Source: Halofilum ochraceum
Lineage (GTDB): Bacteria > Pseudomonadota > Gammaproteobacteria > XJ16 > Halofilaceae
DNA: 64,000 nt
Direction: 5' to 3'
Assembly (NCBI RefSeq): GCF_001614315.2
Contig: NZ_LVEG02000018.1
Span: 1 to 64,000 of the forward strand
Shown piece by piece: positions 43,412 to 46,510 of this stretch. The position numbers and the translations under genes were made by a program. Numbering within the stretch: position 1 is the first letter of the stretch; each line of letters starts with the position of its first letter. Under the pieces are notes generated by a model. The model did no database searches and was not told the origin of the DNA. It saw only the letters and a program-made list of their open reading frames with translations.

Positions 43412-43840
43412 ATGAAGATATCGCGGATTCTGCAGCGCAAATCGGGGGAAATCGCCAGCGTCGCCCCGGACCGCTCGATCCCCGACGTCGTCGCCATTCT
43501 CTGCGAGCGCGACATCGGCGCGGTCATCGTCCTTGATGAGGCGCAGCAAATGGCCGGCATCGTGTCCGAGCGCGACATCGTCCGCGCACTCGACGAACAC
43601 GGCCCGGATCTCTCCGGTCTGACGGCCGCCGACCTCATGACCCGCGAGGTCAAGCACTGCGCGCCCGAGGAGGACATCAATCACGTCATGCGTGTCATGA
43701 CCGACGGCCGGTTCCGTCACCTGCCGATCCTCGACGATGGCCGCCTTGTCGGCATCATCTCGATCGGCGACGCGGTCCGCGCCCGGATCGAGGAACTCGA
43801 GCGCGAGCGCGAAGCACTGCAGCACTACATCGCGGGCTGA
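43412..43840 (+). CDS. CBS-domain protein
   Basis: A 142-residue protein made of two CBS motifs: SVAPDRSIPDVVAILCERDI to GIVSERDIVRAL, and MTREVKHCAPEEDINHVMRV to LVGIISIGDAVRARI. A C-terminal helix (EELEREREALQHYI) may mediate dimerisation. Stand-alone CBS pairs bind adenine nucleotides and regulate partner proteins. No partner is evident here. CAGGAGGTG precedes the ATG. Confidence 0.9.
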   Translation: MKISRILQRKSGEIASVAPDRSIPDVVAILCERDIGAVIVLDEAQQMAGIVSERDIVRALDEHGPDLSGLTAADLMTREVKHCAPEEDINHVMRVMTDGRFRHLPILDDGRLVGIISIGDAVRARIEELEREREALQHYIAG

Positions 43841-43856
43841 CCGCCGATACGCGCGC

Positions 43857-43888
43857 AAAAAAAGAGGCGCCCCCGGCGGGAGCGCCTC
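43857..43888 (-). terminator. Terminator downstream of the 71-residue small gene (minus strand)
   Basis: GAGGCGC and GCGCCTC form a 7-bp perfect stem around an 11-nt GC-rich loop. On the minus strand the stem is followed by TTTTTTT. The T-run is on the minus side only, so it terminates leftward transcripts, which supports the small gene immediately to the right. Confidence 0.8.
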
Positions 43889-43924
43889 CTGCATCACACG
43901 GGCCAGCGGGCGTGCCCGCAACCA

Positions 43925-44140
43925 TCACCCGCGTGCGGGTTTCCCCGTCCGACGGTAGGAATTCCCGGTCCATCCGAGCGGCACGGCGATATCCCGGTGG
44001 CCGACCGGGCTCTTGCGGGCCACGGTCTTCCGGGGCGTAACCGCCGGAGCGGAAACGTCACGGCGCTTCCGGGAAGCCAGCCCGGAAAACACGGGTACAT
44101 CGTAGGCATGGTTGGTCCAGCCAAGCGGCAGCACTATCAT
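43925..44140 (-). CDS. Unrecognised 71-residue small protein with repeated PLGWT motif
   Basis: I do not recognise this family. The protein contains a motif twice, VLPLGWTNHAYDVP near the N-terminus and AVPLGWTGNSYRRT near the C-terminus, joined by a basic linker rich in Arg, Lys and Ala (SRKRRD, TPRKTVARKS). Support for a real gene: GAGGTG 9 bp before the ATG, a candidate TTGTTT/TACTGT promoter with 16-bp spacing upstream, a near-perfect palindrome (accggtccgatccgaccggt) in the leader, and a minus-strand terminator 37 bp after the stop. It has no membrane segment or signal peptide. A role in RNA or nucleic-acid binding is only a guess from charge. Confidence 0.6.
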   Translation of the reverse strand: MIVLPLGWTNHAYDVPVFSGLASRKRRDVSAPAVTPRKTVARKSPVGHRDIAVPLGWTGNSYRRTGKPARG

Positions 44141-44367
44141 CTCTCGTTACACCTCACGCGCGTCATCAACCGGCCCTGCGGGTGGGCCGACCGGTCCGAT
44201 CCGACCGGTGCCGTTACAGTATGGATTTTTGGCGACAAAACAATGACTTTTCCATGTTCTGTCGCAATCGGGACATGACCGTCGCAGAATGGAAGTCGAC
44301 CGCGCTGATCGCCCTGGTGGGCCACTAGCGAAGCCGGTGCACGACCATCGTCGCAACGGAGATCACC

Positions 44368-46101
44368 GTGTCGAAACGAATGCGGAACCGGGATATCGCG
44401 GGGCAGTGTGAACGCCTGGCGGACCTGCTGGAGATCGAGGGTGCGAACCCCTTCCGGGTGCGCGCCTGGCGCAACGCCGCGGAGACGATCGCCGGGCTTT
44501 CGCAAAGCGTGGCCTACCTGGTCGAGTCGGATACCGACCTCACCGAATACCCGCACATCGGCCGGGATATCGCCGAGGGCGTGCGCAGCCTCGTCACCAG
44601 CGGCCACCTGCCCCCCCTGGACGAGATCGCCGCGCGCGTGCCTCCGGAACTCGCCGACCTGATGCAGGTCCAGGGCCTCGGGCCCAAGGGGGTCAAGGCG
44701 CTGTACGATCGATTCCAGCTGCGTACGCTGGACGACCTGGAACGGGTCGCGCGCGCGGGCCAGGTGCGCGAACTGTCCGGATTCGGCCCGAAGAAGGAAG
44801 CGGCACTGCTCGACGGCATCCGGCAACTGCGGGCCGCCGGAGAGCAGCGTACCCGACTCGCCGACGCGGAGTCCGTCGCCGCCCCTTTGCGTGATCGGCT
44901 CGCGGCGATGCCCGGTGTCAGCGACGCGGTGATCGCCGGCAGTTACCGCCGGCGCCGCGAGACCGTCGGCGACATCGATCTGCTGGCGGCCACCGACGAC
45001 AGCGAGGCCGTCATGGACCGGCTCGTCGCCGATGAGGATGTGGAGCGCGTGGTCTCGCACGGCTCGACCCGTTCCACCGTCATTCTGGGCGACGGGCTGC
45101 AGGTCGATGTCCGCGCGGTGTCGCCCGCCAGCTTCGGCGCGGCACTGCTCTACTTCACGGGCTCGAAGCAGCACAACGTCGCCCTGCGCCAGCGCGCCGT
45201 CGACCGGGGCTGGAAGCTCAACGAGTACGGGCTCTACGACGGCGAGAAGACCCTGGAAGCGGCCTCGGAGGCGGCCATCTATCGCCGCCTCGGGCTCGAC
45301 TGGATCCCGCCGGAACTGCGCGAGGACCGCGGTGAGATCGCCGCGGCCGAGCGCGGTTCACTGCCGGAGCTCGTCACCGTGGACACGATCCGCGGCAACC
45401 TGCACGGCCACACGGACTGGAGCGACGGCAAAGAACCACTGGCGGCGATGATCGAGGCCGCCCGCGAACGGGGCCACGACTACATCGCCATCACCGATCA
45501 CGGCCCCCGGGTGCGGGTCGCGAACGGACTCTCGGCCGAGCGCCTGGCCGAACAGGCCGACGCGATCGATGCCGTCGCCGCCGACTACGGCGACATCACG
45601 ATCCTCAAGGGCTGCGAGGTCGATATCCTCGGTGACGGCTCGCTGGATCTGCCCGACGAGGTCCTCGCGCGGCTCGATGTCGTCGTCTGCTCGATCCATT
45701 ACGAGCTGCGCCGCTCGCGTGCGGAACAGACCGAGCGGGTGCTGCGGGCGATGGAGAATCCGCACTTCATGATCTGGGGCCACCCGACCGCGCGCGAGAT
45801 CAACCGCCGCGAGCCGATCGACATCGATCTGGAACGCTGCCTCGAGGCGGCCGCCGAACGCGGCATCGCGGTCGAGATCAACGCCCAGCCCAAGCGCCTG
45901 GACCTGTCCGACACCAACGCGCGGCTGGCGCTGGAAAAGGGGTGCCGGCTCGCCGTCAACACCGACGCCCACGCCACCCACCACTTCGACCTGCTCCGCC
46001 ACGGCATCGACCAGGCCCGCCGCGCCGGGGCGACGGCCGCAGATATCATCAACACCCGCAAGACGGACGACCTGCTTCAACTGCTTCGTTCGCGCCCGTA
46101 G
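44368..46101 (+). CDS. polX: DNA polymerase X with PHP exonuclease domain
   Basis: A 577-residue repair polymerase. The N-terminal Pol beta-like part has helix-hairpin-helix segments (VQGLGPKGVKALYDRF, SGFGPKKEAALLDGI) and the palm acids in TVGDIDLLAAT and LQVDVRAV. The C-terminal PHP domain has metal ligands in NLHGHTDWSDG, AITDHGP, CSIHYE and NTDAHA. It fills short gaps, and the PHP part supplies 3'-5' exonuclease or AP-endonuclease activity. The GTG start has GGAG 6 bp upstream. Confidence 0.95.
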   Translation: MSKRMRNRDIAGQCERLADLLEIEGANPFRVRAWRNAAETIAGLSQSVAYLVESDTDLTEYPHIGRDIAEGVRSLVTSGHLPPLDEIAARVPPELADLMQVQGLGPKGVKALYDRFQLRTLDDLERVARAGQVRELSGFGPKKEAALLDGIRQLRAAGEQRTRLADAESVAAPLRDRLAAMPGVSDAVIAGSYRRRRETVGDIDLLAATDDSEAVMDRLVADEDVERVVSHGSTRSTVILGDGLQVDVRAVSPASFGAALLYFTGSKQHNVALRQRAVDRGWKLNEYGLYDGEKTLEAASEAAIYRRLGLDWIPPELREDRGEIAAAERGSLPELVTVDTIRGNLHGHTDWSDGKEPLAAMIEAARERGHDYIAITDHGPRVRVANGLSAERLAEQADAIDAVAADYGDITILKGCEVDILGDGSLDLPDEVLARLDVVVCSIHYELRRSRAEQTERVLRAMENPHFMIWGHPTAREINRREPIDIDLERCLEAAAERGIAVEINAQPKRLDLSDTNARLALEKGCRLAVNTDAHATHHFDLLRHGIDQARRAGATAADIINTRKTDDLLQLLRSRP

Positions 46102-46167
46102 TCCCCTCATTCGGACATCCCGTGCAGGACCCGCCGCGCCAAGGATCCTGCTAGTCAGTGCAGGAAG

Positions 46168-46475
46168 GTTCTCGCCAAGGCGCGGAGGGCGCCAAGGGAC
46201 GCGAACGTATTCAGTGTCGAACGTGGCGCGGAAATGCAGGTGCCAGAAAACTCCCCCAAACGAGATCGGATACGAGCGTAGGTCGGACTTCCAGTCCGAC
46301 AGGCCGAAGCCTCCTGCCTGTCGGACTGGAAGTCCGACCTACACCCACACCAGTGGGCCCAAGGCGGTCTCCACCGCTGAGCCACTGTTCCAGCGAGTCC
46401 GGGGCAGCGACGGATGAATCATTACCGACTTACCCTCTCCGCGCCCTTGGCGCCCTCCGCGCCTTGGCGAGAACC
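46168..46475. repeat. Nested inverted repeats with a perfect 27-bp central hairpin
   Basis: The outer arms (46168-46206, 46441-46475) are the 'ctcgccaaggcgcggagg' family. The inner arms 46278-46304 and 46316-46342 are exact reverse complements over 27 bp (gtaggtcggacttccagtcc...) with an 11-nt loop. The gap lies between convergent polX and an MFS gene and contains no gene. The inner hairpin would be a very stable bidirectional RNA structure. Confidence 0.92.
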
Positions 46476-46510
46476 CGAATGCACTGACCATCTGCGCCAG
46501 AAGCGCCGAC

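Follow-up and report, generated by a model that had tools for sequence, protein, structure and literature searches.

Intergenic microprotein families of Enterobacteriaceae are described, in the part of the source that we draw on, as mainly hydrophobic and as unstructured or minimally structured (Fesenko et al., PMC11188072). As far as that part goes, the 71-residue protein studied here resembles them in arising from an intergenic frame of ~70 codons that appears to be under purifying selection, in having no assigned function, and in being probably unstructured. It differs from them in its lineage, its strongly basic character, its repeated aromatic motif, and its predicted structured leader (PMC11188072). 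Orphan genes of Bacillus offer another comparison (Karlowski et al., PMC10003748). Judged against the portion of that paper used here, the small gene is similar in its apparent confinement to one genus, with no outside homologue found, and differs from the taxonomically restricted genes of Bacillus in that no non-coding source sequence was found for it (PMC10003748).

The frame lies on the minus strand of the window, by which we mean the whole 64,000-nucleotide stretch of Halofilum ochraceum DNA that was analyzed. It stands between a CBS-domain gene and a plus-strand gene (44368 to 46101) that, from its polymerase-beta and PHP domains, we take to be PolX-like. The comparison set consisted of two other genomes of the genus, G001 and G002, and the small gene is present in two of the three genus genomes. 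The features of the locus are the following.

43412 to 43840, plus strand: CBS-domain gene with two CBS stretches, converging on the 71-residue frame
43855 to 43890, minus strand: predicted intrinsic terminator, a 13-pair stem (43862 to 43890) followed by a T run; kept in G001
43925 to 44140, minus strand: 71-residue open reading frame, ATG to TGA; basic protein with PLGWTxxxY at residues 5 to 13 and 54 to 62
44137 to 44166, minus strand: possible nine-codon leader frame, MTRVRCNER, its TGA overlapping the main ATG (as ATGA)
44150 to 44155, minus strand: Shine-Dalgarno-like hexamer GAGGTG, ending 9 nt upstream of the ATG and identical in G001
44171 to 44209, minus strand: putative twin GC-rich leader hairpins of 7 and 6 pairs, from folding and comparison with G001
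44213 to 44251, minus strand: promoter-like block, TTGTTT (44238 to 44243), 16 nt, TACTGT (44216 to 44221), strongly conserved in G001
44259 to 44286, minus strand: two TGCGAC repeats, 20 bp start to start, a candidate operator found at the same place in G001
44368 to 46101, plus strand: polX-like gene with polymerase-beta and PHP domains, diverging from the 71-residue frame

The sequence-only reading had taken this frame for an unrecognised protein-coding gene with its own transcription signals. Comparison with G001 bears this out. The G001 orthologue is 82% identical in amino acid sequence across 71 of 71 residues and occupies the same site between the CBS and polX-like genes. Across the 213 nt of the frame there is no stop and no indel between the two genomes, while the flanks carry gaps. 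The 30 nucleotide differences fall 8, 6, and 16 on the three codon positions, giving a dN of 0.10, a dS of 0.32, and a dN/dS of 0.31. When the same substitutions were placed at random, a mean of 19.2 amino acid differences resulted, against the 13 observed (P = 0.0063), and 42% of the null sequences gained a stop. The real frame also shows the fewest amino acid differences of the six possible frames (13, versus 16, 18, 18, 23, and 23). These values point to purifying selection on the frame, as judged from one sequence pair; with two known sequences in all, the estimate of selection draws on 30 substitutions. Overall, we consider it very probable that the minus-strand frame is a genuine protein-coding gene.

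The neighboring genes provide a reference for these rates. Their dS values (0.38 for the CBS gene and 0.44 for the polX-like gene) are near that of the small gene, and their dN/dS values are 0.11 and 0.14, respectively, so that the small gene's ratio is two to three times higher. Similar dS together with a higher dN/dS suggests that the small gene separated along with its neighbors and has evolved under looser selection. The expectation that the frame would be unbroken in close relatives held for G001 and did not extend to G002, where the small gene was found neither beside the CBS gene nor beside the polX-like gene. In that genome these two genes lie on separate contigs (L045 6811-7299 on C180 and L046 5302-7089 on C162); different genes come after the CBS gene, and no such frame lies beside the polX-like gene. 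Absence from G002 indicates that the small gene is dispensable in the genus.

The amino acid changes between the two orthologues are unevenly spread. Linker residues 39 to 48 carry 6 of the 13 changes, compared with 5 in residues 1 to 38 (11 nucleotide differences) and 2 in residues 49 to 71, which contain the second motif, despite 9 nucleotide differences there. The ends of the protein are thus kept while the linker drifts. Both PLGWTxxxY copies are preserved in G001, and the linker is the most variable part. The two copies with a basic linker between them, as the sequence-only reading had described, are plainly there: PLGWT occupies residues 5 to 9 and 54 to 58, and a tyrosine follows four residues past the threonine in both. 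Shuffling the protein 100,000 times produced a repeated word of at least five residues in 226 cases, and the two PLGWT copies are thus more than chance. At the DNA level, the double motif likewise occurs once in the window and in none of 100 shuffles. The wider motif units, IVLPLGWTNHAY and IAVPLGWTGNSY, are identical at 7 of 12 residues and 25 of 36 nucleotides. An origin by internal duplication, also suggested earlier, is plausible, although the similarity is short (the 7 shared positions of 12). Retention of both motifs across a drifting linker is consistent with a symmetric binding role.

The protein has a mass of 7.8 kDa, a pI of 11.7, a charge of +9.7, and a GRAVY value of -0.43; its G001 orthologue shares the pI of 11.7 and has a charge of +8.8. 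AlphaFold, run with the two sequences, returned a mean pLDDT of 54 and a pTM of 0.11, with no secondary structure and no confident fold. The protein is probably disordered, and the low pLDDT fits this, as weak evidence rather than proof, coming from an alignment of two sequences only.

The signals around the frame are largely shared with G001. The proposed ribosome site (GAGGTG) is the same in both genomes, and the terminator stem, whose T tail can be read from the minus strand only, is kept. Since the T run belongs to that strand, the terminator fits the 71-residue frame and not the CBS gene; it is the only such site between 43200 and 44600, versus 0.6 expected. The palindromic leader noticed earlier resolves into the two hairpins, which are predicted in G001 also (z scores of -2.3 in the window and -2.5 in G001). 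All 13 pairs form in both genomes, one pair having changed on both sides in a compensatory manner and one on a single side. A shuffle control is without power at two sequences, with 260 of 500 shuffles reaching the observed values; when the pairing partners were slid by 1 to 3 columns, pairing fell to 8 to 52%, in a control that favors a structure derived from one of the two sequences. The candidate promoter stood in part: the TTGTTT-16-TACTGT-like block is conserved, but a scan of the locus for the sigma-70 consensus returned no promoters. A search for the operator pattern found the window's own site and that of G001 at 0 mismatches and three more sites at 2 mismatches in the own genome, while the reversed control gave one match in the own genome and one in G001, so that no regulon is seen. 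G001 also keeps the nine-codon leader frame open, with a single V-to-A substitution; as the ribosome site falls within the same stretch, the conservation seen there is not assignable to the leader frame itself.

The search for relatives was broad. A protein search of the contigs of 84,980 species, which required an exact common word of eight residues and may leave out near records of the own genome, returned one locus, the G001 contig, and no other relative. A two-sequence profile was then applied to 369 genomes of the class, the own genome included, and to 398 genomes of the phylum; in these two runs, scoring was limited to the top 16 or 14 candidates from each genome. Among these best-scored candidates, the clear matches in the class were the own genome and G001 only, with 16 others at E values of 0.0001 to 0.02, and the phylum yielded the own genome and one weak match. 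Six of the weak matches were translated (L035-L038, L043, and L044); they are without the double motif, and several contain stops. The weak phylum match (L062) lies inside a long frame and is missing the second motif. Other weak tblastn and profile matches (E values of 0.0001 to 1) were rejected as judged from their table rows. When all the loci collected by that stage were scanned for even one PLGWT-like motif, only the window and G001 stretches were positive.

Other collections gave a similar picture. Phages and plasmids had no match at E values up to 1, and a protein search of viral contigs had none; one viral-contig match to the DNA pattern of the motif pair fell in AT-rich sequence that contains no open frame. 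For both sequences, Pfam, NCBIfam, PHROGs, and PADLOC returned no families at E values up to 10, and a PDB sequence search likewise returned no matches at E values up to 10. No paper naming a PLGWT protein was found by a word search on PLGWT in open-license literature. The own genome holds no paralogous DNA of the small gene, the other 9 of 10 matches being 19 to 39 nt long with E values above 0.1. Within the databases and genomes scanned, the gene thus appears to be genus restricted, with no homologue outside this narrow taxon.

We propose that the small gene would form a single-gene transcription unit driven by a regulated promoter of its own, with a structured leader at the 5' end, a dedicated terminator, and the TGCGAC repeats and hairpins as putative regulatory elements. 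Translation would yield a very basic, probably disordered protein in which a basic linker joins two copies of IxxPLGWTxxxY, one at either end. Such a protein may act as a two-ended (bivalent) binder: its two aromatic motifs would dock at partner sites of a single kind, and the stretch between them, rich in Arg and Lys, would contact an acidic surface (nucleic acid, the ribosome, or an acidic protein, for example). This binding mechanism is suggested by the symmetry, the charge, and the pattern of changes, and we offer it tentatively, as possible though doubtful. Because the parts differ much in support, we give only even chances to the joint statement that this is a genuine genus-restricted, regulated gene encoding a probably disordered two-ended binder.

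Several alternatives deserve to be weighed against this proposal. It is possible that the frame is young or decaying, either newly arisen or left over from a larger protein that has been shrinking, with little present function. Presence in two of three genomes, constraint looser than in the neighbors, and a GC3 of 0.76 versus 0.86 and 0.88 in the neighbor genes all fit this, but the frame is intact at a dS of 0.32 and its expression signals are complete and conserved, and we consider this reading unlikely. Somewhat less probable still is that the locus functions through a structured small RNA of ~350 nt, the frame being incidental or secondary. The conserved stretch does resemble one transcript, with twin hairpins that include a compensatory pair and with a strong terminator. 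However, the substitutions prefer third codon positions, the real frame has the fewest amino acid differences of the six (13 versus 16 to 23), the frame is free of indels, and the ribosome site is conserved; in addition, three Rfam matches were far below gathering scores and were taken as chance.

The protein might instead be a processed or secreted precursor peptide, RiPP or bacteriocin-like, in which the two motifs are repeated cores. It is small, basic, and taxonomically restricted, its motif is repeated, and a radical-SAM gene lies beyond the CBS gene. That gene, however, carries a molybdenum-cofactor C domain (Mob_synth_C), and a similar MoaA-like radical-SAM gene adjoins the CBS gene in G002 as well, where the small gene is missing. 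Furthermore, the immediate flanks are the CBS and polX-like genes, with no co-traveling modifying enzyme or exporter, and there is no family match, so we regard a precursor peptide as very improbable.

Returning to the two-ended binder, its most specific form would be a bacterial bivalent linker protein of a new type, a disordered basic strap whose two near-identical aromatic docking motifs bridge two copies of a partner, made from a regulated transcript with a structured leader and confined to one genus; we think this improbable at present. To our knowledge, few short-linear-motif adaptors are known in bacteria, and should the motifs prove to be docking sites, the protein would add such an adaptor to bacterial biology. 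For now, the gene is one among very many small genes without an assigned role. It represents a clean, testable orphan microprotein, as it combines a putative single-gene transcription unit and a complete set of candidate signals with selection on the frame and internal symmetry.

A separate observation concerns the neighboring DNA at 46154 to 46488, which holds a composite inverted-repeat element with 45-nt outer arms that are 91% complementary and 245 nt apart. The arms enclose a 32-nt near-perfect hairpin, and the whole resembles an intergenic palindromic repeat element.
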